Assembly (NCBI RefSeq): GCF_000014745.1
Contig: NC_008347.1
Location: 2,930,001 to 2,994,000 of the forward strand
Reading direction: 5' to 3'
DNA length: 64,000 nucleotides
Source: Maricaulis maris MCS10
Lineage (GTDB): Bacteria > Pseudomonadota > Alphaproteobacteria > Caulobacterales > Maricaulaceae
How positions within the stretch are numbered: position 1 is the stretch's first letter; the number at the start of each line of letters is the position of its first letter. Positions 49,122 to 64,000 of this stretch are shown one piece after another. The notes beneath the pieces were generated by a model. The model was not told the origin of the DNA. It saw nothing but the letters and a program-made list of their open reading frames with translations, and searched no databases. Position numbers and translations under genes: made by a program.

Positions 49122-50165
49122 TCACAAATCTTTGGCCGGGCCCGTTGCCGGCGTCGTCACAGAATCTCGTTCGATGAGTTCATAGTCGAGGAGAACTGCA
49201 GCACCTTCCGGGTCAGTCGTGGCGGACAGGGAATCGATCAGGCGCTCAACTGCCATGGTTCCGTATTCAACCAGGGGCTGACGGACAGTCGTCAGCGCAG
49301 GCCAGGTTCGGTCGGCAATCTCTGAGTCATCGAATCCGACAACCGACAAGCGCTCGGGAACCGGGACACCCCGGCGATGTGCTGCCATGACAATCCCCGC
49401 CGCCATGTCATCATTCGCCGCGAAAACCGCTGTCGGCGGGTCGTCCCTGTCCAACAGGTCGTCACCAGCCGTCAGACCGGAGGAGAACTCGAAATTGCCG
49501 GGAAGCACCAATGCCGGGTCGAAGACAATGCCGGCCTCGTCCAGAGCGTCCCGATAGCCGCGAAAACGTTCCTGTGTGGCGTTCTGGTTTTCCTTGCCGC
49601 GCTGGAAGGCAATCCGAGTATGGCCGCGATCGATCAGATACCGTGTCAGATCGCGGGCAGCCGCCTGCTCGTCGATCATGACAGTGAGCGAGGAACCCGG
49701 GAGGTCATGCGGGCCGACACGCGCCACCCGCACATCAAATTCAGATAGGACTTCCGCCAGACGCAGATTGTTGGACAGCGGTGGAACCAGCAACAGGGCG
49801 TCCGGCTTGCTGACTTCCATCAGACGGGCAAAACGCGCGTGCAACTGACTCCAGTCCATGTCGTCCATGCGTTCGAAAAGCGAAATCATCAATTGATAGC
49901 CACGCGCCTGACAGGCCCGCACCGCACCGAACTGGATCGCATTCACATAACTGGACCGGTCCGAGTGCGAGACCATGTGTACCGAGTAGGAGCGCCCCCC
50001 GCGCAATTGACGCGCCGAGGTGCTGGGCACATAGCCGACTTCCGCAGCCGCAGCTTGCACCCGTTTGCGCAGTGCGTCCTTCACATGTGGCTCATTGTTA
50101 AGCACGCGCGACACGGTCTTGACGGACACGCCAGCCTTCTCGGCGACATCAACCATTCGTGCCAT
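49122..50165 (-). CDS. LacI-family transcriptional regulator of the glucan locus
   Basis: A 347-residue LacI repressor. The N-terminal HTH (MVDVAEKAGVSVKTVSRVLN) and hinge helix (YVPSTSARQLRGG) precede a periplasmic-binding-protein-like sugar-binding domain (VFAANDDMAAGI, LSVVGFDDSEIA). The ATG follows a GGGGG stretch and lies 18 bp after the transporter stop, so the two genes are cotranscribed. It likely binds the matched palindromes at 54718-54733 and 62584-62599 and is released by a glucose oligosaccharide; both points are inference. It converges on the TSUP gene. Confidence 0.92.
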   Translation of the reverse strand: MARMVDVAEKAGVSVKTVSRVLNNEPHVKDALRKRVQAAAAEVGYVPSTSARQLRGGRSYSVHMVSHSDRSSYVNAIQFGAVRACQARGYQLMISLFERMDDMDWSQLHARFARLMEVSKPDALLLVPPLSNNLRLAEVLSEFDVRVARVGPHDLPGSSLTVMIDEQAAARDLTRYLIDRGHTRIAFQRGKENQNATQERFRGYRDALDEAGIVFDPALVLPGNFEFSSGLTAGDDLLDRDDPPTAVFAANDDMAAGIVMAAHRRGVPVPERLSVVGFDDSEIADRTWPALTTVRQPLVEYGTMAVERLIDSLSATTDPEGAAVLLDYELIERDSVTTPATGPAKDL

Positions 50166-50183
50166 GCATAGCCCCCAAGCTGG

Positions 50184-51515
50184 TCAGTGCGACTGGATCT
50201 CTTCGACGATCTTTGCGTGAATGTGCCGGTTCAGCGGCAAACGCAAGATAACCAGAGAGGAAAGGAAGAGCAGTATCGACGGCCCCGCGAACATGTAAAG
50301 CTCAAGCCTGTCAGCGGTTTCAAGAGATTGCCGCGCCAGATCCGGATCATAGCCGACCGCTGTCAGCACCGTGCCAACCAGGAGCCCGGCCAGACCGCCA
50401 GCAGTTTTCTGGGACAGGAGCACCGAGCCGAATACCGCCCCCTCATTGCGCGTCCCGCTCTTCCACTGGCCGAACTCCACCGTGTCGGGCACCAGGGCCC
50501 AAACCAATACGCCAAACCCGCTGAACCCGACACCATAGAGCAGGATTTGTAGCGGCAGACCTCCGATCAGCACAGGCCCCAGCAAGGCCAGGAGAAGACC
50601 AGCCGAAATCACCACCCAACACGCCGATATCCAGCCGAGGCGCTTGCCGAACCGACGGATCACTGCTGTCCAGACGGGAATTGAAGCCAGCGTAGCCACA
50701 GCGTAGGCGGTCATGACCGCTTCCTTGCGCGCAAAATCCGCCGCATGGGCTTCGATATAAAAGGCCAACGGAATCAGGAAGGAGGCTCCAGCGCCGGATT
50801 GCAGGAAAATGGCCAGCAACAAGACCTGAAGGGCTCGATTGGCTCGCACTGCCCGCCAGAAGCCCCGAAAACTCAGATCTGCTGGCCGCTCATGGAGTGT
50901 CTCCAGCGTGCGTTCCCGGGTGAAGAGGAAACAAGCCTGGAGGGCGATCGTTGCGATGATGCCGCCCAGCAGGGCCGCAACCAGAAATCCGGTTGGCGAT
51001 TCATCCGTGCCGTCGCCGAAAAAGCGAACGATCGGGAACCAAAGGCCGGACACAGCGAGCAAACCCAGGAAGGCGAAGGCCATGCGCGTCCCGGACAGGA
51101 CGGTACGTTCGCGGCTGTCGAAACTCAGTCGAGAAGCCAACGCAGAGTAGGGAACCGCCACAATGGTGTAGGCCAGCCGAAACAGGATATGCGCCATTGC
51201 CAGCGCCACCATCAGTATCCAGCCCTCCAGCGGCGGCACCCAGAAAAGCAGGACGAACGCCGCGCCCAGGATGACGCCTCCGATCGCGAGGTAGGGCCTG
51301 TAGGTCCCGTATCGGGTCCGGGTTCGCTGGGTCAGATTGGCTATCACGACATCGGAGACGGCATCCCAGGCCATGCCGATGAAGTAGATCAATCCGGCGG
51401 CGTCAGGCGATAGCCCGACTACTTCGGCATACCAGAACACCAGAATAAGCGAGAGCGCATTCCAGTAGATGTTGAGGCCGAAATCGCCAGTGCCGTAGCC
51501 AAGATAGGTCTTCAA
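50184..51515 (-). CDS. MFS sugar transporter, GPH family
   Basis: A 443-residue protein with about 12 membrane segments. The N-terminal YLGYGTGDFGLNIYWN and the AGLIYFIGMAWDAVSDVVI segment are typical of glycoside-pentoside-hexuronide symporters. It would import oligosaccharides from the periplasm after passage through the TonB-dependent receptor. The start appears to be TTG at 51515, since an in-frame stop lies about 36 bases upstream and no ATG or GTG intervenes. It follows the receptor gene, separated by a strong terminator-like stem. Confidence 0.88.
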   Translation of the reverse strand: MKTYLGYGTGDFGLNIYWNALSLILVFWYAEVVGLSPDAAGLIYFIGMAWDAVSDVVIANLTQRTRTRYGTYRPYLAIGGVILGAAFVLLFWVPPLEGWILMVALAMAHILFRLAYTIVAVPYSALASRLSFDSRERTVLSGTRMAFAFLGLLAVSGLWFPIVRFFGDGTDESPTGFLVAALLGGIIATIALQACFLFTRERTLETLHERPADLSFRGFWRAVRANRALQVLLLAIFLQSGAGASFLIPLAFYIEAHAADFARKEAVMTAYAVATLASIPVWTAVIRRFGKRLGWISACWVVISAGLLLALLGPVLIGGLPLQILLYGVGFSGFGVLVWALVPDTVEFGQWKSGTRNEGAVFGSVLLSQKTAGGLAGLLVGTVLTAVGYDPDLARQSLETADRLELYMFAGPSILLFLSSLVILRLPLNRHIHAKIVEEIQSH

Positions 51516-51590
51516 TACGCGCTCTCTATGTTCGATGGCTCCAGCGTTTCACGGATTCCCTGTCCGAGGAAAGCCTGTCCGCCAGAATGC

Positions 51591-51625
51591 AAAGGGGCGG
51601 CAGGTCCAATTTGACCTGCCGCCCC
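51591..51625 (-). terminator. Stem-loop terminator after the TonB-dependent receptor gene
   Basis: On the minus strand a perfect 13-bp GC-rich stem (51613-51625 with 51594-51606) has a 6-base loop and is followed by TTT. It sits 28-62 bp after the receptor stop and before the transporter start. It probably terminates most transcripts while letting some read on into the transporter and LacI genes. Confidence 0.82.
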
Positions 51626-51634
51626 TGCATACCG

Positions 51635-51653
51635 ACTCGCGGAGGGAGCGAGT
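51635..51653 (-). other. Second stem-loop at the receptor stop codon
   Basis: ACTCGC and GCGAGT form a perfect 6-bp stem with a 7-base loop next to the TAA of the receptor gene. With the stronger stem at 51594-51625 it gives two consecutive 3' hairpins, which may stabilise the receptor messenger RNA. Confidence 0.45.
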
Positions 51654-54600
51654 TAGAAGCGGCCGCGCAAGACGAATGCGAAGCGCCGGTCATTGCGGAA
51701 ATAGGCCCGCGGTGCCTGCACCAGGTTCGAATTGATGACCGCGCTGGTTTCAGAAACCTCATCCAGCAGGTTCACCGCCTGGACACCGACAGTCAGACTG
51801 TCCGTGATGTCGTAGAAGATTGAGCCATCAAGCTGACCCGTACTCTCATGAACGACAGGGGTGAACGGATAGATCACGTCACGAACAGTCAGCGTGTATT
51901 CCGAACGCCAATTATAGGCGAGACGGGCGCTCCAGCTGTCGGTTTCGTAGAAGCCGACCAGGTTGACCGTGTGCTCGGACATGAGCGGCAGGCGCAACTG
52001 TGACACGTCGAAGTTAGGCGCGGAGCCACGCCCGTTCGGCTCGTCATTCTTGGGACCGATGTTCGGCACACCCTGAGCGTCGATATAGGTGTAGTTCGCC
52101 TGGACGCCCAATCCTGACCATATGCCGGGCAGGTCATCGAAGGTTTGCTGATAGGCAATTTCGAAGCCCTTGATCTCGCCACTGTCCGACGCATTGCCGA
52201 CACCGTCGACATCAACGGCAAATGTCTCGCCATTGTTTGTGACATCCCGTTGCAGGATGGCCGGAACGATGTAGTCGCTCAGGTTTTTCTGGAACAAGGA
52301 GAAGGTCAGCGAGCCAACATCATCGAAATACCATTCGAATGCGAGGTCAAACTGGTCGGCCGTGATCGGGTCAAGTTGAACGTTGCCGGTTGAGGCGTCC
52401 GGCCCCAGCCACGCGCCGGTCACCGGGTCATCGCCGCCTTGCTGAATGACCAGATTGCTTTTCATCAGGCCGAAATCAGGACGGAAGATGGCCTGGGAGA
52501 GACCCAGGCGGATCTGGAATTCGTCCGTGATACCGAACACCACATTGGCGCTGGGAAGCCAATTCTCATAGGTGTGGCTGTCGGTGTTGGACTGGTTGCT
52601 GCCATCCGCCCAGTCATAGAAGGCCGTCTGCGTTGCCGCACCCTCGAGGCAGATACCGGGCGTAGTACCGACGATACCGGCACAATAGGCCGCCGGCGTC
52701 ATACCGTTGAACACCAGGGCACGGTCCGGGAATGAGAGCGCACCAACGGCACTGGTCTGGGTTTCGACATAACGAAGGCCGACATTGCCTGAAATGCGAA
52801 TGCCGTCGGACCGATGTTCATTGTCGAAGTCCAGACGGCCATAGAATGCCGTCGTATCCTGCGTCACATCGGTAATCTCGGACGGCAGGAATGGCGTCCC
52901 TGCCACGACACCACCACGCTGGGCCAGCGGCACCCAGCCACCGTTTCCAGCCGCGTTACGCATCGCCATGATGGCAGCGACAGCCTGGTCGTAATCCTCG
53001 CCCAGAGCGCCAGTATACATCGGGATGCCGCCCTCAAGGCCGGTTGTCATGCCACGCATGTAATTATCGAAGTTATAGAGCTCGAATGTTCCCGGCGGGA
53101 TGGCCGGATTGTCCAGAGCGAACGGCGAGTTCCATGTCGCCGAAATATTGCCCCAGTTATAGACCGAGCTGCGTACAACCTGCTCCCGGTTGGAAACACG
53201 GCCACCAAAGCGCACGGACCTCAGCCAGCTGTCGCCTTCGAAATCATATTCGGCGTCAGCACGGAAGGCGACCGATTCGCCTTCATTGTCCGAGAGATGG
53301 TCCATAGCCGAGCGAAGGTAGTAGTTGCTGGCGTCAGAGAAATACGGATCCGAGCCGTCAGCAGGACGGCGGTAGATCACGCTGGGCACATCACCGGTCA
53401 CATCCAGATCAATGTCCGAGAAAAACGCGCCGTGGACCGTAACATCCGCGATGTTCACTTCGGACTCAACGAACTGCAGGTCAAAACTGGCGCGGAAGCG
53501 GTCAGTCGGCGACCAGCGGAGATTGAATCCGATGTCGGTGGTCAGACTTTCATCCGTCTTGCCCCGTGCAAGGGCGAGCTGGCGAACGCCGTTCAGCGGA
53601 TGAGTCGGATCATTCGAACGCCAACCGACATTCTCCGAGATCACGCCGCTCTCGAACAGACCATTGTCGTCATAGGTGAAGCTTGTACCCGGAGCCGGCG
53701 TGATTGCGGGCCCACTGTCGATGGACGGCTCAACCGCGCGTTCCGACCAGGCATTTTCATAGGAAGCCCGGAAGAATTGCGCCGTCGCCTCCAATTCACC
53801 GTCTGCACTGCGCCACTGAGCGGCAGCGGAAATCGAGTCTCGTGTCCGGTCAAACAACTGCGTCCGGATCCCAGCGCCAGACGGCACGTAGAGGCTTTGG
53901 CCGTCACTAGGGTCCCGATCGAGCCATTCAGCGACGAGCGTACCATCAGCGCGGCTTTGCAGCTCGGAATAGGAGGCGCCAAAGATGAGGCCGAATTCAG
54001 ACCCATTCCCCAGCTCCCAGCGATTGCTGTAGATGCCCGACATCGTGGGCGTGACTTCCTCGGCGAAATCCGAGTAGTTCGCCTCGAGGGTGAACGCCAT
54101 CATGCGACCACCCTGGTCGAACGGGAGGCGTGTATTGAGGTTCACCGTACCGGCGAGCCCGCCTTCGATCATGTCGGCCGACTGGTTCTTGAATACTTCA
54201 ACCGATCCAAGCATTTCCGGCGAAACATCGTTGAAGCCGATTTGCTGACCATTATCGGCAGAGAACACGTCCCGACCGTTCAGCTCACTGCGGGCGAAGT
54301 TGAGGCCACGAATGATCGCGCCGGACCCTTCGACCGAGAAATGGTCTGGGTCGTTTTCACCTTCAAACCGCGTGATGTTCACACCCGGAACGCGCTGCAA
54401 CGCTTCCGCGACCGAACGGTCCGGCAAAGCGCCGATATCCTCGGCCGTGATCGCGTCCACAAGAACGTCGGAATTGCGGCGGATCTCCTGGGCGCTTTGC
54501 AGGCTGGAGCGGATACCCCGCACCGTGATCACCTCGGTATTGCTATCGTCTTCGTCCTCGACATCCTGCGCGTAAACGCTCGTCGAAACCATCGCAATGG

Positions 54601-54682
54601 ATATGGCTGCGAGGCTCGCCCCCCGCCACAATCCAGTTCGGAGCCCCCGCATCGGACGCTCCCTCATCCCTTTGTAAAACAT
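51653..54682 (-). CDS. TonB-dependent outer-membrane receptor (Caulobacter/Xanthomonas type)
   Basis: A 1009-residue receptor. A signal peptide (ending STSVYA-QD) is followed by a short acidic stretch with the TonB-box-like EVITVRGIR, the plug domain (DVLVDAITAEDIGALPDRSV, VPGVNITRF, NQSADMIEGGLAGTVNL) and a ~750-residue barrel ending in FVLRGRF with terminal Phe. The sequence is of the long TonB-Xanth-Caul type that imports complex carbohydrates. ATG 54682 has GAGGGGAG; the longer TTG frame at 54733 overlaps the operator palindrome. Context predicts glucan oligosaccharide uptake. It is divergent from the halogenase-like genes. Confidence 0.94.
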   Translation of the reverse strand: MFYKGMRERPMRGLRTGLWRGASLAAISIAMVSTSVYAQDVEDEDDSNTEVITVRGIRSSLQSAQEIRRNSDVLVDAITAEDIGALPDRSVAEALQRVPGVNITRFEGENDPDHFSVEGSGAIIRGLNFARSELNGRDVFSADNGQQIGFNDVSPEMLGSVEVFKNQSADMIEGGLAGTVNLNTRLPFDQGGRMMAFTLEANYSDFAEEVTPTMSGIYSNRWELGNGSEFGLIFGASYSELQSRADGTLVAEWLDRDPSDGQSLYVPSGAGIRTQLFDRTRDSISAAAQWRSADGELEATAQFFRASYENAWSERAVEPSIDSGPAITPAPGTSFTYDDNGLFESGVISENVGWRSNDPTHPLNGVRQLALARGKTDESLTTDIGFNLRWSPTDRFRASFDLQFVESEVNIADVTVHGAFFSDIDLDVTGDVPSVIYRRPADGSDPYFSDASNYYLRSAMDHLSDNEGESVAFRADAEYDFEGDSWLRSVRFGGRVSNREQVVRSSVYNWGNISATWNSPFALDNPAIPPGTFELYNFDNYMRGMTTGLEGGIPMYTGALGEDYDQAVAAIMAMRNAAGNGGWVPLAQRGGVVAGTPFLPSEITDVTQDTTAFYGRLDFDNEHRSDGIRISGNVGLRYVETQTSAVGALSFPDRALVFNGMTPAAYCAGIVGTTPGICLEGAATQTAFYDWADGSNQSNTDSHTYENWLPSANVVFGITDEFQIRLGLSQAIFRPDFGLMKSNLVIQQGGDDPVTGAWLGPDASTGNVQLDPITADQFDLAFEWYFDDVGSLTFSLFQKNLSDYIVPAILQRDVTNNGETFAVDVDGVGNASDSGEIKGFEIAYQQTFDDLPGIWSGLGVQANYTYIDAQGVPNIGPKNDEPNGRGSAPNFDVSQLRLPLMSEHTVNLVGFYETDSWSARLAYNWRSEYTLTVRDVIYPFTPVVHESTGQLDGSIFYDITDSLTVGVQAVNLLDEVSETSAVINSNLVQAPRAYFRNDRRFAFVLRGRF

Positions 54683-54717
54683 AATCTTCTCCCCTCGTTT
54701 GGCTGAAGTCTCCGCCG

Positions 54718-54733
54718 TTGACAGCGTTGTCAA
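54718..54733. promoter_or_regulatory. LacI-type operator in the receptor/halogenase divergent promoter
   Basis: TTGACAGCGTTGTCAA has perfect 6-bp outer arms and a central CG, typical of LacI-family operators. It lies 35 bp before the receptor ATG and 120 bp before the first halogenase-like gene. Read on the minus strand it differs at only two of 16 positions from the palindrome before the GH3 gene (62584-62599). Confidence 0.78.
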
Positions 54734-54853
54734 TTTTTGGCACTTTCAATCAAACAACCTGTTCTGTCAACAAGAACCAATGATGGTCGAGGTGCGGAGT
54801 TGTAGGGAGAATGCAAAGATGCCGCGCATCAACTGCACTCCGGGGAGGGAAGA

Positions 54854-56377
54854 TTGGGTCAAGATGCCCCAAGGCGGATCGTCGTTGTCGGCGGAGGCAC
54901 CGCAGGATGGATGGCTGCGGCCGCGCTGGTGTCGGTTTTGCCCAGCCAGCGCGTCCAGGTCACCCTGGTCGAATCCGAAGCAATCGGCATCATCGGTGTG
55001 GGCGAGGCGACGCTTCCCCATCTGCGCCATTTCAATGAAACCCTTGGCATCAACGAGGCCGATTTCATCAAGGCGACGTCCGCCACGCTGAAGCTCGGCA
55101 TCGAGTTCGTGAACTGGGCCCGAAAGGGCGACAGCTATGTGCACCCATTCGGCGATTTCGGGACCGAGATTGCCGGCCTGCCCTTTCATCAAGCCTGGAC
55201 CCGGATGCGGGCCGCCGGCAAGGCCCGGGATATCGGTGCCTACTCGCTTCCCGTCCGCATGTGCGCGGCAAACCGGTTCGACAGACCCGCAGAAGACCCG
55301 GCCGATTTTGCATCCCGCTTCGGCTATGCCTACCAGTTCGACGCCACCCGTTATGCGCCCTTCCTGCGCCAGCATGCCGAAGCCCGCGGCGCGACCCGAA
55401 TTGAGGGCATTGTCGACACGGTTCATTGCGATCCTGAAACCGGCGATATCGAGCGGCTCGACCTGAAGGACGGGCAAGAGATCGAAGGCGATTTCTTCTT
55501 TGACTGCACCGGATTCCGAGGCGTTCTGATCGAGCAGGCGTTGAATGTGGGTTATGAGGACTGGTCACATTGGCTGCCGTGCAACCGGGCTATCGCCCTG
55601 CCTAGCGAAAAATCCGGACCAACCCCGCCCTACACGCGTGCAACCGCACATCAGGCGGGCTGGCTATGGCGGATTCCGCTGCAGCACCGCACCGGGAACG
55701 GGCATGTCTATGCCAGCGATTTCATCGATGATGAGACGGCCCGTCAGACGCTGCTCGACAATCTGGAAGGCGCGCCCCTGGCTGATCCTCGACCGCTGCG
55801 TTTCACAACCGGCAGGCGTAAACAATTCTGGGCTCATAATTGCGTCAGCATCGGGCTGGCTGGCGGTTTCCTTGAACCGCTTGAATCGACGAGCATCCAT
55901 CTAACGCAGATCGCAATCACGCAATTCATTGAACTGTTTCCGGTAGATAACGATTACACGCTTGAGCGAGAAAGCTACAACGCGCACATGACGCGGGAAT
56001 TCGAGCGCGTGCGCGACTTCCTCATCCTCCACTATCATGCGACCGAACGGACTGATTCCGAGTTCTGGAACTACGTCCGCACCATGCCGGTACCGGATTC
56101 GCTGACGGAAAAAATGGCCCTGTTTCGGCAAACCGGGCGTGTCGGTCGATATCAGCAAGGGCTATTTTTGGAGCCCAGCTGGCTCGCCGTCTATCTCGGT
56201 CAGCGAATCGTCCCGCAGAGCTGGGATGGGCGATTGGACACGATCCCGGAAGAATCCCTCGGTCAGTCGCTGACAACAATCGAGTCGCAGATCGATCAGG
56301 CGATGTCCCGTATGCCCGACCATGACACCTGGCTGGCCAATCTGGCCGGCGTCGAGGCGGAGACGCGTCATGGCTGA
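54854..56377 (+). CDS. Tryptophan-halogenase-like flavoprotein 1
   Basis: A 507-residue flavin-dependent halogenase family protein of normal length. The FAD loop VVGGGTAGW is near residue 10, GVGEAT follows, the catalytic Lys is Lys80 (TLKLGIEF), the WxWxIP motif spans Trp270-Pro275, and the catalytic Glu is Glu344 (EPLEST). All hallmark residues are present, so halogenation chemistry is possible, though no substrate can be named. A partner flavin reductase is not encoded nearby. The apparent start is TTG 54854 behind GGGGAGGGA; ATGs nearby are out of frame. First gene of the operon diverging from the receptor. Confidence 0.88.
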   Translation: MGQDAPRRIVVVGGGTAGWMAAAALVSVLPSQRVQVTLVESEAIGIIGVGEATLPHLRHFNETLGINEADFIKATSATLKLGIEFVNWARKGDSYVHPFGDFGTEIAGLPFHQAWTRMRAAGKARDIGAYSLPVRMCAANRFDRPAEDPADFASRFGYAYQFDATRYAPFLRQHAEARGATRIEGIVDTVHCDPETGDIERLDLKDGQEIEGDFFFDCTGFRGVLIEQALNVGYEDWSHWLPCNRAIALPSEKSGPTPPYTRATAHQAGWLWRIPLQHRTGNGHVYASDFIDDETARQTLLDNLEGAPLADPRPLRFTTGRRKQFWAHNCVSIGLAGGFLEPLESTSIHLTQIAITQFIELFPVDNDYTLERESYNAHMTREFERVRDFLILHYHATERTDSEFWNYVRTMPVPDSLTEKMALFRQTGRVGRYQQGLFLEPSWLAVYLGQRIVPQSWDGRLDTIPEESLGQSLTTIESQIDQAMSRMPDHDTWLANLAGVEAETRHG

Positions 56378-57650
56378 ACCAATCCGGTCGATATGCATTC
56401 TGGGAAACGGTCTGGAAGCCTGGCTTACCGCGCATGTGCTGTACAAGGCACTCGGGGGAGAGGCGGTCTCAATCCATATCCAACCGCTCGACTCAAGGAT
56501 CCATGACGACTGCGCCTATACGATCTTGCGCCCATCGGCGCTGGTCGCTCTGGACCAGTTCGGTCTGAACCTGCAGGGCCTTCTGCGTCTGCCGGCGACC
56601 CTGCCCAGCCTGGGTCAGGTCCTTCGTTCTGCAAGCGGCGTCGACACGCTCCTGCCCTATGGCGGGCAAGGTGTCGATTGGGCCGGGACCAGTTTTCACC
56701 ATCATTGGCTTCGCGCACGCCAGGCCGGTTTGCGCCATCCCTATTTCGCCTTTTCGCCCGGCTATCACGCCATGGCGTCAGACCGCTTTGCCCCGCCCGA
56801 CAGACGCAACGCGATAGGGCCGATGCAGCATGAAAGCGGCTTGCACGTCAGTACTCGGGAGTTGACGGAAAACCTGCGGCTCAATTTGCAGGCCAACATT
56901 ATCGTCCTCGATCCGACAGCCAATTGCGAACAGGCTGATCTTGTCATCCATGCGCCCGGGGCTCCGGACCGGAATTCTACGCTGGACCCGGTTCACGCTG
57001 GCCCGCCCAAACCCTACGCCGTGCGAGTCGAGGCTGGCGGCGAATCGCGCCTGCAAATCCCGCTGCGTTCCGGCTGGTTGGACCTGCCGACGCCTGCGGG
57101 ACCGGCCAAACGTCATTGTGGCAACTCACCCTGGGGCGAGGATGGCCTGGTCGTCGGGCTCGCGGCCGCCCACCTGCCCGGCCTTGAAGACCGGTCCATG
57201 GACCGGCTTCTCTTCGAGCTCGAAACCTTGCTGGAACTCTGGCCACGGTCCGGTGTCCATTCCGCGGAGGCCCTCGAATACAACCGCCTTTGGGCGCAGG
57301 AGGCCGATGAATGGACAGCACTGAGCGCGCTGTCGGCCGACCAGGAAGACCAACGTTGTCAGGCGCGGAAGGCTGTGTTCCGCCGACGCGGTTATATCGA
57401 GCCGCTGGAAAGCCGCACGATCACTCCGGAGGACTGGGTGGAGGCCTTTATTGGGCGCGGTGTGATCCCTGCCCATTACGACCGGTTGAGTGAGCGTTTG
57501 ACCGACCCGCAGCTCAAGTCCGAGCTGCAAAAATTCACCGATGCGGTCGGTCGGACCGTCCGCGAGTTTCCCAGTTTCCCGAGCTATCTACGGGCGATCG
57601 ACCGAGCGGTCGGGCCGGCCACCGATGCCAAGACGGAGCCATCCGCATGA
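56370..57650 (+). CDS. Degenerate tryptophan-halogenase-like paralogue
   Basis: A 426-residue protein about 80 residues shorter than its neighbours. The N terminus MAEPIRSICILGNGLEAW parallels the start of the fourth copy but the FAD loop reads GNGLEAW in place of GGGTAGW. GVGEAT, the catalytic Lys segment and WxWxIP are lost. Similarity persists in FHHHWLRARQ (FHHFWLHARQ in copy 4), in EYNRL and in the C-terminal GRGVIPAHYDRLSE region. The Glu of EPLEST may survive as GLEDRS. It is probably not a halogenase, yet the frame is intact and overlaps both neighbours (8 bp and 4 bp), so it is expressed with them. Function unknown. Confidence 0.8.
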   Translation: MAEPIRSICILGNGLEAWLTAHVLYKALGGEAVSIHIQPLDSRIHDDCAYTILRPSALVALDQFGLNLQGLLRLPATLPSLGQVLRSASGVDTLLPYGGQGVDWAGTSFHHHWLRARQAGLRHPYFAFSPGYHAMASDRFAPPDRRNAIGPMQHESGLHVSTRELTENLRLNLQANIIVLDPTANCEQADLVIHAPGAPDRNSTLDPVHAGPPKPYAVRVEAGGESRLQIPLRSGWLDLPTPAGPAKRHCGNSPWGEDGLVVGLAAAHLPGLEDRSMDRLLFELETLLELWPRSGVHSAEALEYNRLWAQEADEWTALSALSADQEDQRCQARKAVFRRRGYIEPLESRTITPEDWVEAFIGRGVIPAHYDRLSERLTDPQLKSELQKFTDAVGRTVREFPSFPSYLRAIDRAVGPATDAKTEPSA

Positions 57651-59176
57651 CGGGCACCATCTCGAAAGTTGTAATCGCCGGAGGCGGTACCGCTGGCTGG
57701 ATGACGGCGGCGGCCCTGTCCCGCTTTCTTGTGCCTTCCGGCGTCACAGTCGAACTGGTGGAAAGCGAACAGATCGGAACGGTTGGGGTTGGCGAGGCGA
57801 CCATCCCGGGCATCATCGACTTCAACCGCATGCTCGGAATTGACGAGGCGGACTTCATTGCCGCCACCAAGGGGACGTTCAAGCTGGGCATTGAATTTGT
57901 CGACTGGGACCGGGTCGGAAATCGCTATCTTCACCCGTTCGGTGAATACGGCTTCGACCTGGAGGGCGTCCCTTTCCATCATTACTGGCTGCGCGACCGG
58001 TTGCGCGGGAGTGATCACCCGCTGTCGGCCTACTCCATGTGTTGCCAGGCGGCCATGTCCGGGAAATTCATGCGGCCGGTGAGCGATCCGCAATCGCCGG
58101 TCGCCCAAATGCGTCACGCCTACCATTTCGATGCCGGGCTCTACGCCCGCTACTTGCGCAACTATGCGGAACAGCGTGGCGTGACGCGTGTGGAAGGCCG
58201 GATCAAGGCGGTTGATCAATCAACAGAGACCGGCTCGCTGACCGCGCTCGAGCTTGAGAATGGCAGCCGGATCGAGGGCGACATCTTCGTGGATTGCACC
58301 GGCTTTCGAGCCTTGTTGATCGGCGAAACGCTGGGCGTCGACTATGATGACTGGCGCCGCTACCTGCCATGCGACCGGGCAATTGCCGTGCCCTGCGAAA
58401 AGATCGGGGCCGCCGCCCCGTACACACGCGCAACGGCCCGTGAGGCCGGCTGGCAATGGCGTATTCCCCTGCAGCACCGGACCGGTAACGGGTATGTCTA
58501 TTCGTCCTCCTTCCTGAACGATGACGAGGCAGAGAGTGCACTCCTGGCCAATCTCGACGCTCCGACGACCGGCCCGACCAACAGGCTGCGTTTCACCCCG
58601 GGACGCCGCCGCTCGGTGTGGAAGAAGAACTGTGTCGCGATCGGCTTGTCCGCCGGCTTCCTTGAACCTCTGGAATCGACCAGCATCCATCTCATCCAGG
58701 AGGGCGTCAGCAAGCTGCTGGCCCTGTTCCCGCGGGGCGGGATCAACCAACGCGAGGTCACCCGCTACAATTCGATTATCGGCAATGCCTATGACTATGT
58801 GAGGGATTTCCTGATCCTCCACTACAACGCGACCACGCGCGACGATACGCCATTCTGGGACTATGTGCGGACAATGGCCGTGCCCGACAGCCTCACGGAA
58901 ACGGTTGAACTCTTCGCAGAAAACGGGCGCTTCTTCGCCCACAAGAGCGACCTGTTTAGCATCACGTCCTGGGTCGCGGTGATGATCGGCCAGGGAATAT
59001 TGCCACGCGGCTATGATCCGGTGGCCGACTCCATCCCGGACCAGGATCTCGTCGCCACGCTCACCAACATGCGCGAGATCTATGCCCAGGCGGCTTCGAA
59101 AATGCCGCCACATCAGGCCTTTATCGACCATCTTGCAAAATCCGCCCGCCAAGGAGGCCAGGCCCATGCCCGTTGA
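57647..59176 (+). CDS. Tryptophan-halogenase-like flavoprotein 3
   Basis: A 509-residue flavin-dependent halogenase family protein. The FAD loop IAGGGTAGWM, GVGEATIP, catalytic Lys79 (TFKLGIEF), WxWxIP at Trp269-Pro274 and Glu343 (EPLEST) are all present. It is closer to the fourth copy than to the first (ESEQIGTVGVGEATIP in both). Its ATG overlaps the stop of the degenerate copy (ATGA). No signal peptide, so it should act in the cytoplasm. Confidence 0.9.
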   Translation: MTGTISKVVIAGGGTAGWMTAAALSRFLVPSGVTVELVESEQIGTVGVGEATIPGIIDFNRMLGIDEADFIAATKGTFKLGIEFVDWDRVGNRYLHPFGEYGFDLEGVPFHHYWLRDRLRGSDHPLSAYSMCCQAAMSGKFMRPVSDPQSPVAQMRHAYHFDAGLYARYLRNYAEQRGVTRVEGRIKAVDQSTETGSLTALELENGSRIEGDIFVDCTGFRALLIGETLGVDYDDWRRYLPCDRAIAVPCEKIGAAAPYTRATAREAGWQWRIPLQHRTGNGYVYSSSFLNDDEAESALLANLDAPTTGPTNRLRFTPGRRRSVWKKNCVAIGLSAGFLEPLESTSIHLIQEGVSKLLALFPRGGINQREVTRYNSIIGNAYDYVRDFLILHYNATTRDDTPFWDYVRTMAVPDSLTETVELFAENGRFFAHKSDLFSITSWVAVMIGQGILPRGYDPVADSIPDQDLVATLTNMREIYAQAASKMPPHQAFIDHLAKSARQGGQAHAR

Positions 59177-60698
59177 TCCCATTCGCTCCGTCCTGATTGT
59201 CGGCGGCGGCACGGCCGGCTGGATGACGGCGGCGGCCCTGGCGAAGATATTCGGTGATCAGGCGCTGGACATACGCCTTGTGGAAAGCGAGCAGATCGGC
59301 ACGGTCGGCGTCGGCGAGGCCACGATTCCACAAATCCTGCTCTTCAACCGGATGCTCGGGATCGACGAGAACGAGTTTGTTCGCGCGACCCAGGGCACGT
59401 TCAAGCTGGGGATCGAATTCGTCAATTGGCGGCGTGAGGGGCATAGCTATATCCACCCGTTCGGCTCCTACGGCAGCGACATGGATGGGGTTATGTTCCA
59501 CCACTTCTGGCTCCACGCGCGGCAGCGCGGCTATGAAGTGGACCTGCCGGAATTTTGCCTGCAGATAATCGCCGCCCGCCAGGGCAAATTCCTGCGGCCG
59601 GTACCCGATGCCCGCAATTCTCCGCTCGGGCATATCGCCTACGCATTCCAGTTCGATGCCAGCCTCTATGCCGCCTATCTCCGGCGCTACGCAGAAGGCC
59701 GTGGCGTCACGAGAACGGAAGGCCGCATTGCTAATACGCGTCTCGATCCAGAGACAGGACATGTGCAGGGCGTTCAGCTTGAGAACGGCGAGACGATAGA
59801 AGCCGACTTCTTCATCGACTGCTCGGGCTTTCGCGGCCTGCTGATCGAACAGGCGCTCAAGACTGGTTATGAGGACTGGAGCTCCTGGCTGCCCTGCAAC
59901 AGCGCCCTTGCGGTTCCGTCCGAAAACACGGGGCCGCCCTCGCCCTACACGCGCGCCACGGCCCGGAAGGCTGGTTGGCAGTGGCGTATTCCGCTCCAGC
60001 ACCGCACCGGTAACGGTCATGTCTATTGCTCTGACCATATCAGCGATGACGAAGCGGCGAACATCCTGCTGTCCAACCTCGACGGCCCGGCGCTGCGTGA
60101 CCCGCTGCAACTGCGTTTTACGACCGGACATCGAAAGAAGTTCTGGAACAAGAACGTGCTCGCGATCGGACTGTCTGCCGGCTTCATGGAACCACTGGAG
60201 TCGACGAGCATCCATCTGATTCAGAGCGGCATTGCGCGTTTGATGACACTCTTTCCCGACCGCGCCTTCAACCCGGTGGACATCGACGAATACAATCGAC
60301 TCACCCTGCAGGAATACGACTATGTGCGCGACTTTCTGGTTCTGCACTATCGGCAGACAGAGCGCGATGACAGCGAGTTCTGGCGCTATTGCCGAAACCT
60401 CCCGCTAACGGATCATCTGGCCCGCAAGCTTGCGCTCTACCAGACCAATGGTCGCGTCAGCCGCGAAAAGGACGAGCTCTTCAACGAGACCAGCTGGCTG
60501 GCTGTTCTGGATGGGCAGGGCGTCGTTCCGCAGGGGCATCACCCGCTTGTTACCGGGCTTGGCGATGCAGAAGTCGATGCGCGCCTGGAGCAGATTCTGG
60601 GCGCAGTCCGAGCATCGGCCCGACAAATGCCCTCGCATGCAGACTTCATCGCCAACCAGTGCGCTGCGCCGGCCGATATCCAACTTTTTCAGGCTTAG
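59166..60698 (+). CDS. Tryptophan-halogenase-like flavoprotein 4
   Basis: A 510-residue halogenase family protein with FAD loop IVGGGTAGWM, Lys80 (TFKLGIEF), WxWxIP at Trp271-Pro276 and Glu345 (EPLEST), so the catalytic set is complete. ATG 59166 has AAGGAGG at 8 nt and lies inside the last 11 bases of the third copy. The longer in-frame start at 59013 is coding sequence of copy 3 in another frame. The GH9 gene starts 9 bp after its stop, which places halogenase-like and glycosidase genes on one transcript. Confidence 0.9.
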   Translation: MPVDPIRSVLIVGGGTAGWMTAAALAKIFGDQALDIRLVESEQIGTVGVGEATIPQILLFNRMLGIDENEFVRATQGTFKLGIEFVNWRREGHSYIHPFGSYGSDMDGVMFHHFWLHARQRGYEVDLPEFCLQIIAARQGKFLRPVPDARNSPLGHIAYAFQFDASLYAAYLRRYAEGRGVTRTEGRIANTRLDPETGHVQGVQLENGETIEADFFIDCSGFRGLLIEQALKTGYEDWSSWLPCNSALAVPSENTGPPSPYTRATARKAGWQWRIPLQHRTGNGHVYCSDHISDDEAANILLSNLDGPALRDPLQLRFTTGHRKKFWNKNVLAIGLSAGFMEPLESTSIHLIQSGIARLMTLFPDRAFNPVDIDEYNRLTLQEYDYVRDFLVLHYRQTERDDSEFWRYCRNLPLTDHLARKLALYQTNGRVSREKDELFNETSWLAVLDGQGVVPQGHHPLVTGLGDAEVDARLEQILGAVRASARQMPSHADFIANQCAAPADIQLFQA

Positions 60699-60707
60699 GA
60701 GACTTCC

Positions 60708-62543
60708 ATGCTCGTCACACTTATCAGCCTGACCCAGGCATTGGCCGCAGCAGGTTGCGACATTCCCGCTGGTGAAACACCGATCCTGTTCAACCAGACC
60801 GGCTTTGAGTCGGGTGCCGTGAAACTTGCGGTCTTGCGCAATGCCGCGACAGAACCGGCCCGCTGGGAAATCCGTGACGCGAGCGGCAGCGTCCGGTTGA
60901 ACGGCGAGACCATCGTCCACGGGTTGGATGCCAGCTCGGGCGATTTTGTTCACCAGATCCGCTTTGATGCCTTGACCGACCAGGGGGAAGATTACCAACT
61001 CACTGTGTGCGGCGAGGAGAGCCGACCGTTCACGATCGCCGACGAGCCCTATGGCCGATTGGCGGAAGACGCGCTGCGCTATTTCTATCTCAACCGGCTG
61101 GGGACCGAATTGCAGCCGGAATTTACCGGCGGGGCGATGTGGGCGCGCGCGGCCGGGTTCATTGACAGCCATCCGACCTGCTTTTTCGGCCCGGACCAAG
61201 AGGGAACCGAGTGGCCGGGCTGTAGCTACACGCTCGAAACGACCGGTGGCTGGGCCGATGCTGGGGATTACGGCCAGTATGTGGTCAATGGAGGCATCTC
61301 AGTCTGGACCCTGCAACATGCCTACGAACGCCTGGCGGCACGCGGTCAACTGGCCACATTGGGCTGGACCGGTGAACGCGTAGCACTGCCCCAAGAGCAG
61401 GAGACCATCAGTGAAATCCTGCTGGAGGCGCGCTGGCACCTGGACTGGATGCTGACGATGCAGATCCCCGACGGCGAGACCGTTTGGGTCGATCAGCGGT
61501 TACCCGGGGCCGACACGGCAGACCTTCAGGAGATTGATGGCTCGGGCCTGGTCCATCACAAGCTCCATGAACGGGCCTGGCTGCCTTTGCCCTTATTGCC
61601 ACAAGACGCGGATGAAGAACGCTTTCTCATACCCCCATCTACGGCTGCAAGCCTGAACCTGGCCGCAGCCGCGGCCCAAGCTTCGCGTCTGTGGGAAGAA
61701 CTTGATCCTGACTATGCCGTGCGCACGCTCGAGGCCGCGCGTCGCGCCTATACTGCCGCTCAACGCAATCCGGACCTTCTGGCCCGGAACAATTTCGATG
61801 GCGGTGGCGCCTATGGCGATACCGATCTTCTGGATGAGTTTGCCTGGGCCGCGGCAGAGCTCTTTCTGACGACCGGAGACACAGGCTACGCAGATGACCT
61901 TGCGGCGGCTCTGACCAATGACGCCTATCAGCCCTCGCCCATATTCTGGGCCAATACAGGCCTGCTGGCGGACCTGTCCCTTGCACTGAGTGACGAGCCC
62001 TCGCCTGAGCGGGCAGACGCGGCTGACCGCCTGGTCGCGGAGGCCAATCGATATCTCGAAGAGGCGGATCGCGAAGGATACCACTTCCCGATGCCTGCGA
62101 GTGAAATGAACTGGGGGTCGAACGCCAACCTCCTCAATCGGGGACTGGTCCTTGCCAGCGCCCACGACCTCACCGGGGACGAACGATACCGCAATGGCGC
62201 AGTCCATGCCCTGGACTATGTATTGGGCCGCAACGCCCTGGATCAGAGTTATGTGTCCGGCCACGGAGTCCGCAGCATGCAGACACCGCATCACCGCTTT
62301 TGGGCACGTGGTGCCGATCCGGAATTCCCGCCAGCCCCGGCCGGGGCCCTGTCGGGCGGCGCCAATCATCTGAACATGGCAGATCCGGTTGCGATGGAAA
62401 TGCGCGGAACCTGCGCGCCCCAACGCTGCTGGGCCGATCATGTCGATGCATTCGCTCTCAACGAGGTCGCCATCAACTGGAATGCGCCCCTGTTTGCGCT
62501 GGCGGCTCAACTGGAGAGCACCACCGCGCAAGCCTCTGAATGA
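60708..62543 (+). CDS. GH9-family endoglucanase
   Basis: A 611-residue secreted glycoside hydrolase family 9 enzyme. A short signal peptide precedes an N-terminal Ig-like CelD-type domain (PILFNQTGFESG) at residues ~20-110. The (alpha/alpha)6 catalytic domain has the Asp pair Asp184 and Asp187 in GGWADAGDYGQYV and the catalytic acid Glu586 in NEVAINWNAPL. It would cleave beta-1,4 or mixed-linkage glucans in the periplasm or at the surface. TAGGAG precedes the ATG. It ends the halogenase operon; the GH3 gene follows after 89 bp with its own operator. Confidence 0.92.
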   Translation: MLVTLISLTQALAAAGCDIPAGETPILFNQTGFESGAVKLAVLRNAATEPARWEIRDASGSVRLNGETIVHGLDASSGDFVHQIRFDALTDQGEDYQLTVCGEESRPFTIADEPYGRLAEDALRYFYLNRLGTELQPEFTGGAMWARAAGFIDSHPTCFFGPDQEGTEWPGCSYTLETTGGWADAGDYGQYVVNGGISVWTLQHAYERLAARGQLATLGWTGERVALPQEQETISEILLEARWHLDWMLTMQIPDGETVWVDQRLPGADTADLQEIDGSGLVHHKLHERAWLPLPLLPQDADEERFLIPPSTAASLNLAAAAAQASRLWEELDPDYAVRTLEAARRAYTAAQRNPDLLARNNFDGGGAYGDTDLLDEFAWAAAELFLTTGDTGYADDLAAALTNDAYQPSPIFWANTGLLADLSLALSDEPSPERADAADRLVAEANRYLEEADREGYHFPMPASEMNWGSNANLLNRGLVLASAHDLTGDERYRNGAVHALDYVLGRNALDQSYVSGHGVRSMQTPHHRFWARGADPEFPPAPAGALSGGANHLNMADPVAMEMRGTCAPQRCWADHVDAFALNEVAINWNAPLFALAAQLESTTAQASE

Positions 62544-62583
62544 GACTGGCGATTAATCACTGAAACGTTTTGCGCGCCGAGAA

Positions 62584-62599
62584 TTGACAACGTAGTCAA
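62584..62599. promoter_or_regulatory. LacI-type operator upstream of the GH3 gene
   Basis: TTGACAACGTAGTCAA is a near-perfect palindrome with central CG, 33 bp before the GH3 ATG. It matches 14 of 16 positions of the operator at 54718-54733 read on the minus strand. TTGACA could also serve as a -35 element, so binding would block the promoter. Confidence 0.78.
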
Positions 62600-62632
62600 T
62601 AATTGGTCATCTTTCGGTCGAGGGAGACCAGA

Positions 62633-64000
62633 ATGACAACGAAGACGCAGAAGCTCGCATCCGTTTCTATGATCGCGACCTTGATCAGCATCGGGCTGGC
62701 AGGTTGTAGCGACGGCACCGATACCGCCGCTACCGAACGCCCCGCTGCGTCGTCATCTCCCGCGGTCTATACTCCGCCCGCCGATGCTATGGCGGATCCG
62801 GACGCTTGGCCCCAAATCGCCCCCTTGCCGCTCGACCCCGAAGTCGAAGCCCGTATCGATAGCATCATGGCGATGATGACCGTCGAGCAGAAAGTCGGCC
62901 AGACGATCCAGGCCGATAGCGGCTCCGTGACACCTGAGGATGTTCGCAATTATCGACTGGGGTCGGTGCTGAGCGGTGGGAACTCCGCACCTGGACCGCG
63001 CGCCTATGCCGACGCCCAAACCTGGCTCGATGCGGCCGACGCATACTTCAACGCCTCGATCGACCCTGACGGCGTCGAGATCGCGATTCCCATCATATGG
63101 GGAATTGATGCGGTCCATGGTCACGCCAATTTGCGCGGCGCCGTGGTCTTTCCGCACAATATCGGCCTCGGCGCGATGAATAATCCCGATCTGATCGAAG
63201 ACATCTACCGTGTGACCGCACGCGAGTTGTCCGTATCAGGCCATGACTGGACGTTCGCGCCCACGCTCGCCGTGCCCCGGGACGACCGATGGGGTCGCAC
63301 CTATGAGGGGTTTTCGGAAGATCCGGCCATCGTCGCCGCCTATGGTGAGCGCATAGTCTGGGGCTTGCAGGGACGGCCGGGCACAGATGAGTTCATGGGC
63401 GAGGGCCGCGTCATCTCCAGTGCCAAGCATTTCCTGGCCGATGGCGGTACTCTGGATGGTCGCGATCAAGGCGACGCCCAGATCAGTGAGGCCGAGCTGC
63501 GCGATATTCACGCAGCCGGTTACTACACCGCGATTCCGGCTGGTGTGCTGACTGTCATGGCTTCATTCTCAAGCTGGAATGACGCCCGCATGCACGGCAA
63601 TGAAAGCCTGCTGGAAGACGTTCTGCGTGACCGGATGGGCTTTACTGGATTTGTGGTCGGCGACTGGAACGGCCACGGTCTGATCCCGGGCTGTGTGTCG
63701 ACTGATTGTCCCGAAAGTTTCAATGCGGGCGTCGACATGTTCATGGCGCCCGACAGCTGGCGCGAGCTCTATCACAATACGCTGGCCCAGGTTCGGTCTG
63801 GCGAGATCTCCATGGAACGCCTCGACCAGGCTGTTCGCCGTATCCTGCGAGTCAAGATCGAAGCCGGCCTGTTTGAACAGGTCGCGCCCAGTGAACGCCC
63901 GCTGGCCAACAGCGACACAGTCCTGGCCGCGCCGGAACATCGCGCCATCGCCCGGCAGGCGGTTCGCGAGTCGCTCGTCCTCCTGAAAAACGTTGATCAG
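62633..64000 (+). CDS. GH3-family beta-glucosidase lipoprotein (3' end outside window)
   Basis: 456 codons are present with no stop before the right edge, so about half of a typical ~800-residue GH3 exo-beta-glucosidase is seen. A lipoprotein signal ends in a lipobox with Cys after GLAG (ISIGLAGC). The GH3 barrel shows GIDAVHGH, KHFLADGG and the nucleophile Asp344 in GFVVGDWNG. The sequence is of the exo-1,3/1,4-beta-glucanase type. It would release glucose from GH9 products at the membrane. GAGGGAG precedes ATG 62633. It has its own promoter and LacI-type operator. Confidence 0.92.
   Translation, partial: MTTKTQKLASVSMIATLISIGLAGCSDGTDTAATERPAASSSPAVYTPPADAMADPDAWPQIAPLPLDPEVEARIDSIMAMMTVEQKVGQTIQADSGSVTPEDVRNYRLGSVLSGGNSAPGPRAYADAQTWLDAADAYFNASIDPDGVEIAIPIIWGIDAVHGHANLRGAVVFPHNIGLGAMNNPDLIEDIYRVTARELSVSGHDWTFAPTLAVPRDDRWGRTYEGFSEDPAIVAAYGERIVWGLQGRPGTDEFMGEGRVISSAKHFLADGGTLDGRDQGDAQISEAELRDIHAAGYYTAIPAGVLTVMASFSSWNDARMHGNESLLEDVLRDRMGFTGFVVGDWNGHGLIPGCVSTDCPESFNAGVDMFMAPDSWRELYHNTLAQVRSGEISMERLDQAVRRILRVKIEAGLFEQVAPSERPLANSDTVLAAPEHRAIARQAVRESLVLLKNVDQ

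Follow-up and report, generated by a model that had tools for sequence, protein, structure and literature searches.

A probable LacI-controlled uptake locus of Maricaulis maris carries receptor-linked halogenases, one of which is a degenerate partner

Gene content and regulation of the locus

The window analysed here is a 64,000-nucleotide stretch of the Maricaulis maris MCS10 genome (NC_008347.1, positions 2,930,001 to 2,994,000), and the locus lies at its end, where a LacI-family regulator, a GPH transporter and a TonB-dependent receptor (TBDR) on the reverse strand diverge from four halogenase-like genes, a GH9 gene and a GH3 gene on the forward strand; this layout was given in the preliminary description, and the open reading frames and domain matches agree with it. 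The regulator is the probable repressor of the locus (49122–50165, -; PF00356 66.6 bits, PF13377 133.7 bits, with operator sites in the cluster), and is followed by a GPH-family sugar:cation symporter of the inner membrane (50184–51515, -; TIGR00792 273 bits, above the cut-off) and the TBDR, a member of the TonB-Xanth-Caul family (51653–54682, -; TIGR01782 663 bits). The probable start of the receptor is ATG 54682; the listed open reading frame (51653–54733) opens at a TTG (54733) within an operator. On the forward strand are hal1 (HalA, 54854–56377, +; PF04820 629.6 bits), hal2 (HalB, 56370–57650, +; 426 aa, 51.9 bits), hal3 (HalC, 57647–59176, +; 637.7 bits) and hal4 (HalD, 59166–60698, +; 661.7 bits), with the start of hal2 inside the final 8 bp of hal1 and a 4 bp overlap between hal2 and hal3. 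The 9-bp gap reported earlier separates hal4 from a GH9 glycoside hydrolase with a CelD_N domain (60708–62543, +; PF00759 284.5 bits, PF02927 66.3 bits), beyond which a GH3 glycoside hydrolase (62633–64000, +; PF00933 242.9 bits for the in-window part) runs past the window end to position 1204 of the adjoining stretch, L009.

These profile matches place a TonB-Xanth-Caul receptor, an inner-membrane sugar transporter and glycosidases together, which is the mark of a TBDR carbohydrate-utilisation locus, and together with the LacI gene they support the carbohydrate-uptake reading already proposed for this DNA; that this is an uptake locus, in our proposal a LacI-controlled one for β-glucan, is in our view very likely. 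The locus shares a TBDR, LacI, an inner-membrane symporter, GHs and shared operator-like sites with the TBDR carbohydrate-utilisation loci of Caulobacterales, Sphingomonadales and Xanthomonas, which we take to be CUT/PUL-like, and differs from them in the halogenase cassette with a degenerate member, which is an added module here. The cluster extends beyond the window, with a second TBDR, two further halogenases and two GH13 genes found 10–16 kb on. The genome search gave seven halogenase matches from six genes, all of which fall in these two loci; the two loci also hold two of the five TBDRs in the genome that score above the TIGR01782 cut-off.

A LacI-type operator (TTGACAGCGTTGTCAA, 54718–54733) is located in the divergent receptor/hal1 promoter and is the only mismatch-free site in the genome, and the same motif is found at the equivalent place in a same-genus relative (L155, 7450–7465). 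A second operator-like site, with one mismatch to TTGACANCGNTGTCAA, precedes the GH3 gene (62584–62599) and has a counterpart in the relative (15265–15280). Only three sites with one mismatch or fewer occur genome-wide, all within the cluster and the third preceding a second GH3 gene, and two of the three are kept in the relative. Judging from these motifs, the halogenases probably have their regulation in common with the receptor and GH genes through shared LacI-type operator-like sites.

Three intact halogenases and a degenerate second member

The four tandem halogenase genes of the preliminary description were only partly borne out, as three are intact and the second, hal2, is degenerate and has lost catalytic residues (51.9 bits against 630–662 bits for the others). 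Hal1, Hal3 and Hal4 are full-length matches to PF04820 covering at least 454 of 458 positions, and all have the catalytic Lys, WxWxIP and Glu (signature GGGKWWIPPLESTS); Hal3 shares 50% identity with Hal1 and 53% with Hal4. Their motifs are those of BrvH, the flavin-dependent halogenase of Brevundimonas BAL3 (PDB 6frl), against which Hal1 and Hal4 score 478 and 518 bits. The best match of Hal4 is Xcc4156 from Xanthomonas campestris (PDB 6y1w, 546.6 bits), while that of Hal1 is a Pseudoalteromonas sp. L11 halogenase (PDB 9luq, named from the entry title; 479 bits), and Hal1 also shares a superfamily with the peptide/RiPP tryptophan halogenase MibH (PDB 5uao, 187 bits).

The weak PF04820 match of Hal2 is best in its C-terminal stretch. 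In its signature (GGASSLIPGLEDRS) the catalytic Lys is replaced by Ser and the Trp-Trp of WxW by Ser-Leu, so that WxWxIP is absent, as is the FAD-loop motif GVGEAT, and the residue in the catalytic-Glu column is E in a changed context. The best sequence match is again PDB 9luq (50.8 bits). An AlphaFold single-chain model of Hal2 has a pLDDT of 90.8 (the alignment and model used 56367–57650, one N-terminal residue more than the likely protein), and structure comparison aligned it with BrvH (6frl_A) over 400 residues (Z 36.4, rmsd 2.5), with CmlS and CtcP scoring lower (Z 19.5–19.7). In this prediction Hal2 keeps the halogenase fold, while its flavin-loop residues and most of those for halogenation are gone.

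Structures of BrvH-class halogenases have been solved, and no native substrate is known for the class (PMC7336383). Indole-type test substrates are modified by BrvH and by three of its relatives from Xanthomonas, and free tryptophan is not (PMC5945002, PMC7336383); part of the BrvH structure has been likened to MibH (PMC5945002). The brvH gene also adjoins a second halogenase gene (42.7% identical); the accessible part of that paper describes no degenerate partner of the kind seen in hal1/hal2, and the word TonB is absent from the paper (PMC5945002).

Conservation of the intact and degenerate pair

Across 179 loci, 77 of 80 degenerate halogenase genes immediately follow an intact one, and 72 of the 77 intact partners belong to one clade, the HalA clade, of which hal1 is a member. 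As this clade was picked without rooting, by comparing every split of the tree for its agreement with the pairing, the number of its members that are followed by a degenerate gene (72/72) is a fitted figure; it compares with 5/253 for other intact halogenases. Support for the clade is 0.652, with an inner clade of 67 members at 0.906; rooting on L144 instead gave an uninformative clade of 298 and was dropped. The sample is non-random, with 11 loci picked by a hal2 search (L155–L165) and 80 by a HalA search (L196–L275), and one place was taken twice (L163 and L244), so that two intact proteins are double among the 405 and no degenerate or clade member is. In the phylum-sample loci alone, a degenerate gene comes after each of the 8 clade members, and 9 of the 11 degenerate genes present occupy that position. 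The pairing of a hal2-type paralogue with the HalA clade spans the Alpha- and Gammaproteobacteria, all sampled members of the clade to which hal1 belongs have a degenerate partner, and a degenerate partner beside a working halogenase is a conserved design. We found no account of such a partner in the literature searched, a weak negative as subscription papers were mostly outside its coverage.

At flavin and catalytic positions the 77 degenerate proteins rarely keep the residue (GxGE loop 1, K77 9, W269 9, E341 13, F336 1), and elsewhere they mostly keep G10 (75), W323 (72), D214 (70) and G331 (70). Retention is partial for the first Trp of WxW (54/77) and for GxGxx[GA] (53/77), and eight proteins have lost just one of the three features tested. 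Purifying selection acts on the degenerate genes (dN/dS 0.15–0.35 in the nine of ten pairs that were computable), and in all nine pairs the hal2-type gene evolves faster than the position-1 gene. Their matched stretches are 269–517 aa long (median 479) in one open frame, with the openness a product of construction as the proteins were cut from stop-free frames; the shortest are 269–341 aa, two of which end at a contig edge. The deep relationships among hal2-type genes are poorly resolved in the tree. A further halogenase gene lies 3' of the degenerate one in 58/77 cases, so HalB could serve that enzyme instead of HalA.

Linkage to TonB-dependent receptors

The proposed linkage of TBDR, halogenase and GH genes holds in other genomes, as a TBDR is present in 69/86 sampled halogenase loci (median halogenase–TBDR gap 192 bp), with none seen within the stretch in the other 17. 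Three Xanthomonas loci from species other than campestris (L257, L268 and L271) differ in having a single halogenase and LacI, no TBDR recognised in the stretch, and no cassette. Halogenase-like genes have reportedly been noticed beside TBDRs in xanthomonads before, but no paper stating so was found in the literature searched, which mostly lacked subscription papers and held nothing joining these halogenases to TBDR loci. Among 299 genomes, both families occur in 33, the halogenase alone in 3, the TBDR alone in 15 and neither in 248; at a threshold of E <= 1e-60, 15 of the 48 genomes that carry the receptor family give no halogenase match.

The linkage occurs beside GH13, GH3/GH9 or GH10/GH43, and since the glycosidases vary in this way what stays constant is the receptor and not any single glycan. 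Halogenase divergence tracks that of the receptor better than that of the GHs, with distance correlations in the same loci of 0.64 for TBDR–halogenase against 0.18 for halogenase–GH3 (46 loci), 0.60 against 0.34 for GH13 (30 loci), and 0.81 against 0.60 for GH9 (19 loci). Some other pairs exceed the TBDR–halogenase value in the same loci: TBDR–LacI (0.61 vs 0.40), TBDR–cupin (0.65 vs 0.54) and TBDR–SapC (0.73 vs 0.47). GH13/97 genes occur without SapC, cupin, GH3/GH9 or three halogenases in 17/69 of the TBDR-linked loci. The four-gene cassette is often near xylan-type GHs (GH10, GH43, GH67 and GH115), with GH10 in 14/76 loci, GH43 in 10/76, GH9 in 17/76 and GH3 in 30/76, the GH10 and GH43 labels resting on the typing of one member per cluster, and a GMC oxidoreductase recurs in 5 loci. 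Among the 10 typed of 28 listed recurring neighbour clusters (one of the 10 without a family) there is no esterase or ring-cleavage family.

No aromatic column universally marks the linked receptors, with W516 present in 108/150 linked and 11/41 unlinked sequences. The strongest differences are both non-aromatic, R143 (140/150 vs 10/41) and D407 (139/150 vs 11/41), and are confounded by receptor phylogeny; the linked/unlinked label changes 12 times on the receptor tree. Most of the unlinked receptors were taken from 40 stretches chosen for having no known nearby halogenase, two of which held one (L290 and L307). In a comparison with MibH-type RiPP systems, a search around these halogenases and receptors for a conserved gene encoding a precursor peptide gave no convincing candidate among 3160 small ORFs (18–110 aa), and the groups listed, common to six loci or fewer, resembled shadows of other genes when judged by eye, though a diverged or distant precursor would escape such a search.

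Discussion

We propose a LacI-controlled β-glucan uptake locus with a receptor-linked heteromeric halogenase module, and put the probability of this explanation as a whole at roughly 0.45. HalA and HalB would assemble in the cytoplasm as an asymmetric complex, a step that we consider reasonably probable, in which HalA would carry out the reaction, using FADH2, O2 and halide, and HalB may give structure or substrate recognition. HalC and HalD may act on the same position or a following one. The aromatic group that is modified would belong to the receptor polypeptide or to something travelling with the receptor, and not to the glucan, although this step is doubtful. The most specific version, in which HalA with its degenerate subunit HalB, assisted by HalC and HalD, would halogenate an aromatic side chain of the TBDR before export, making this outer-membrane transporter subject to regulated halogenation after translation, is a long shot.

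Two alternatives concern Hal2 itself. It might be a decaying duplicate on its way to being lost and the cassette a mere tandem array of paralogues, as the faster evolution of hal2-type genes, their poorly resolved deep relationships and the shortening of some of them would allow. This is already disfavoured and very improbable given a dN/dS well below 1, the confidently predicted fold, the 77 members with long matched stretches in one frame, and the keeping of position 2 across classes. It is also conceivable, if improbable, that HalB binds substrate or carries flavin for HalA without a stable heterodimer, which would suit the retained fold and the GxGxx[GA] motif, but with GxGE kept in just one of 77 proteins a role as flavin carrier is unlikely.

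Others concern the target. An aromatic group on the glucan, as suggested earlier for this locus, is weakened by the GH13/GH97 linkage and by divergence that follows the receptor, and we know of no aromatic substituent for GH13/GH97 (α-glucan) loci. Xylan can carry ferulate, however, and other β-linked wall polysaccharides can carry phenolics, and with xylan-type GHs nearby the idea keeps some ground for the four-gene cassette. The cassette might then halogenate or oxidise aromatics bound to plant or algal wall glycans (ferulate-type esters or phenolics) that enter with the oligosaccharide, for detoxification or sugar release; its proximity to GH10, GH43, GH9 and GH3 and the recurring GMC oxidoreductase speak for this, yet we hold it to be unlikely as GH13/GH97 loci likewise contain receptor-linked halogenases of this class and the typed neighbours offer no esterase or ring-cleavage family. 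The activity of BrvH and its Xanthomonas relatives on indole-type substrates instead suggests a small signal or defence molecule, such as an indole derivative, made or modified by the halogenases and released when glycan is plentiful, with the degenerate subunit tuning activity. We think this quite unlikely: BrvH is slow on indole, which its authors doubt is the natural substrate (PMC5945002), a non-systematic search of the typed neighbour families gave no biosynthetic or export gene of such a sort, and a secreted product alone would leave the tie to receptor clades unexplained.

For the receptor-linked heteromeric module that we prefer, the phylum-wide sample ties BrvH-class halogenases to one receptor family. 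Dependence on HalB does not explain the behaviour of BrvH and Xcc4156, as both score higher against Hal4 than Hal1. The degenerate partner is conserved, and single-enzyme assays would omit it; if HalA needs HalB, a HalA-type enzyme might seem poorly active in vitro when alone.

Organisation and regulation of the halogenase locus

As set out in the preliminary description, the minus strand of the locus at 49122–64000 encodes LacI, a GPH symporter and a TonB-dependent receptor; the plus strand, read divergently from the receptor, encodes four halogenase-like proteins, GH9 and GH3. The genes hal1 (54854–56377), hal2 (56370–57650), hal3 (57647–59176) and hal4 (59166–60698), which encode HalA to HalD, overlap successively by 8, 4 and 11 bases, and the ORF coordinates bear out the 9-bp gap to GH9 noted in the same description. 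Because of these overlaps and the 9-base spacing after hal4, hal1–hal2–hal3–hal4–GH9 is probably a single transcript. The locus is a portion of a larger cluster which reaches past the window end to include a second GH3, an SSS-type transporter, two GH13, two more halogenases, a second receptor and a second LacI. These two halogenases are intact and convergent (10124–13279 of L009, the home-genome stretch beyond the window; about 3004123–3007278 of the genome contig C1), and adjoin the second receptor and the GH13 genes; a similar arrangement is seen in the same-genus relatives L162 and L163 (L244 and L163 are one and the same place). All six PF04820 genes of the home genome lie within these two loci, and two of the five home-genome receptors over the TIGR01782 cut-off are in this cluster.

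The divergent receptor/hal1 promoter contains a candidate operator, TTGACAGCGTTGTCAA (54718–54733), a palindrome with a central CG, which is a LacI-like trait. Sites with no more than one mismatch to TTGACANCGNTGTCAA occur at three places genome-wide, all inside this cluster, including those before GH3 (62584–62599) and before the second GH3 (genome 3000039–3000054), and allowing two mismatches gives 14 places in the genome compared with 4 for the reversed pattern. In L155, from a relative in the same genus, the motif recurs at both corresponding places (two matches were seen in 0/200 shuffles). The restriction of these sites to the cluster and their retention in L155 suggest that the receptor, halogenases and GHs are likely to be under common control. 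A further TonB-Xanth-Caul receptor, at 235710, has a two-mismatch site some 300 bp ahead of it (C1 235407–235422), which may belong to a related regulator.

Linkage between halogenases and receptors

The enzymes of the locus are members of a known halogenase class, and halogenases linked to receptors have reportedly been noticed previously. When 299 genomes from the phylum were searched with PF04820, with at most five matches scored per genome, 36 (the home genome included) had a match at E ≤ 1e-60. Stretches no longer than 19.8 kb, 86 in all, were fetched around the 108 listed hits outside the home genome, with neighbours detected by HMMs made from recurring neighbour genes. A receptor of the TonB-Xanth-Caul family (TIGR01782) was present in 69 of the 86 stretches, within 5 kb in 68 and 1 kb in 49 (the median gap over the 69 loci is 192 bp), and the receptor–halogenase linkage for which a neighbourhood search had been proposed is thus conserved. 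At least 231 receptors were found in the 35 genomes at E ≤ 1e-80 in about 138 Mb, which by our estimate puts the probability of a random stretch of this length containing one at about 4%. Both families were found in 33 of the 299 genomes, the halogenase only in 3, the receptor only in 15, and neither in 248 (Fisher p 7e-29, related genomes not being independent); the three halogenase-only genomes have the lowest best PF04820 scores among the 36. Stretch L241, which came from a separate HalA search and belongs to a record titled Arthrobacter sp. TPD3018, carries a halogenase cassette of typical alphaproteobacterial look, and the record is probably mislabelled or contaminated.

A conserved degenerate partner

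The 179 loci yielded 405 halogenase-like proteins, 403 of them distinct. The catalytic lysine, the pair of WxW tryptophans and the catalytic glutamate are all present in 325, and the other 80 lack one or more of these three features (all three in 56, two in 15 and one in 9); the catalytic positions were assigned in part from PMC5945002. Of the 80 degenerate proteins, 77 are encoded immediately after an intact halogenase gene and in the same direction; the exceptions are L239, a partial sequence where the contig ends, and the lone genes of L153 and L154, whose stretches contain SapC. The latter two (L153 9105 in genome G289 and L154 9227 in genome G413) occur in genomes where no TonB-Xanth-Caul receptor was matched, and we read them as another use of the halogenase family. 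The intact partners fall into one clade in 72 of the 77 cases, and all 72 members are followed by a degenerate gene, the split having been fitted to the pairing; the five outside are in L070, L224, L254 (two) and L258. The degenerate gene is followed by two more halogenase genes in 37 of the 77 cases, by one in 20, by three in 1 and by none in 19, of which 3 lie where the contig ends, and positions 3 and 4 from different species partly group together in the tree. In the literature searched, no description was found of a halogenase clade with a conserved degenerate partner. The Sphingomonas gene RS06730, annotated as a tryptophan halogenase, is listed with one insertion among colony-morphology genes in PMC11340318.

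The dN/dS of the degenerate gene is 0.15–0.35, well below 1, in the nine computable of ten related-cassette pairs and exceeds that of position 1 in each; the method was simple counting, and five of the nine pairs have one or more genes with dS above 1. The matched stretches are 269–517 aa long, with a median of 479, and all are uninterrupted open frames, though by construction as the proteins were cut from stop-free frames. The degenerate genes do not look like pseudogenes. When the 66 columns shared by 95% or more of intact enzymes were scored in the 77 degenerate proteins, the GxGE flavin loop was retained in 1, the lysine in 9, the second tryptophan in 9, the glutamate in 13 and the first WxW tryptophan in 54, with the eight best-kept columns retained in 64 to 75; on this measure residue loss is selective. 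In hal2 the lysine is replaced by serine and the two tryptophans by serine and leucine, and E aligns with the catalytic glutamate. The predicted HalB model (pLDDT 90.8, pTM 0.91, from an alignment of 55 sequences), the single modelled member of the degenerate set, matches BrvH (PDB 6frl) with a Z of 36.4 over 400 residues.

Neighbouring genes and co-divergence

SapC (PF07277) is found in 29 of the 69 receptor-linked loci, 24 of which also have a Cupin_8 gene (PF13621); a further pattern, GH13/GH97 without SapC, cupin, GH3/GH9 or three halogenases, is seen in 17, and three or more halogenases in 9 (neighbour family names rest on one representative each). The 76 loci with an intact-then-degenerate pair include GH3 (30), cupin (26), LacI (21), GH9 (17), GH10 (14) and GH43 (10), as well as GH5, GH67 and GH115 clusters (one member of each typed). 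Across the 86 loci, SapC (32), cupin (31) and DUF6445 (12) recur beside the same receptors, and we know of no role for them there.

On the receptor tree, a clade of 76 (support 0.971) takes in 64 of the 68 receptors from pair loci, and most receptors of the SapC and GH13 types lie outside it. Halogenase distances track receptor distances more than GH distances within the same loci. Distances of LacI, SapC and cupin show a tighter fit to the receptor than those of the halogenase, which is therefore one among several receptor-tied parts.

Proposed function of the halogenase pair

BrvH and Xcc4156 (PDB 6y1w) are relatives of HalD and HalA, with which HalC shares 50–53% identity. PMC5945002 describes slow indole bromination by BrvH in vitro, and there and in PMC7336383 the native substrates of the BrvH group are given as not known. 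One-clade pairing, gene overlap, a retained fold and lost chemistry are what a non-catalytic subunit usually shows, and suggest that HalB would form a complex with HalA. This would sit in the cytoplasm, as each of the four Hal proteins has a flavin-binding strand that starts no more than about ten residues from the likely N-terminus.

Our first guess for the modification target is the receptor or something travelling with it, because the receptor is constant while the glycan varies, and because Cupin_8 members include JmjC-type oxygenases; this is tentative, and we would give it about three chances in ten. Comparison of residue columns between halogenase-linked and unlinked receptors found no direct mark of receptor modification. 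Arg143 is present in 140/150 linked and 10/41 unlinked receptors, and Asp407 in 139/150 and 11/41, respectively (numbered by the matched window receptor stretch); these positions may mark a receptor subfamily alone. In the receptor tree, two GH13-type receptor loci with no halogenase within the stretch, L283 and L293, are nested among halogenase-linked ones, and provide natural controls for the contribution of the halogenase.
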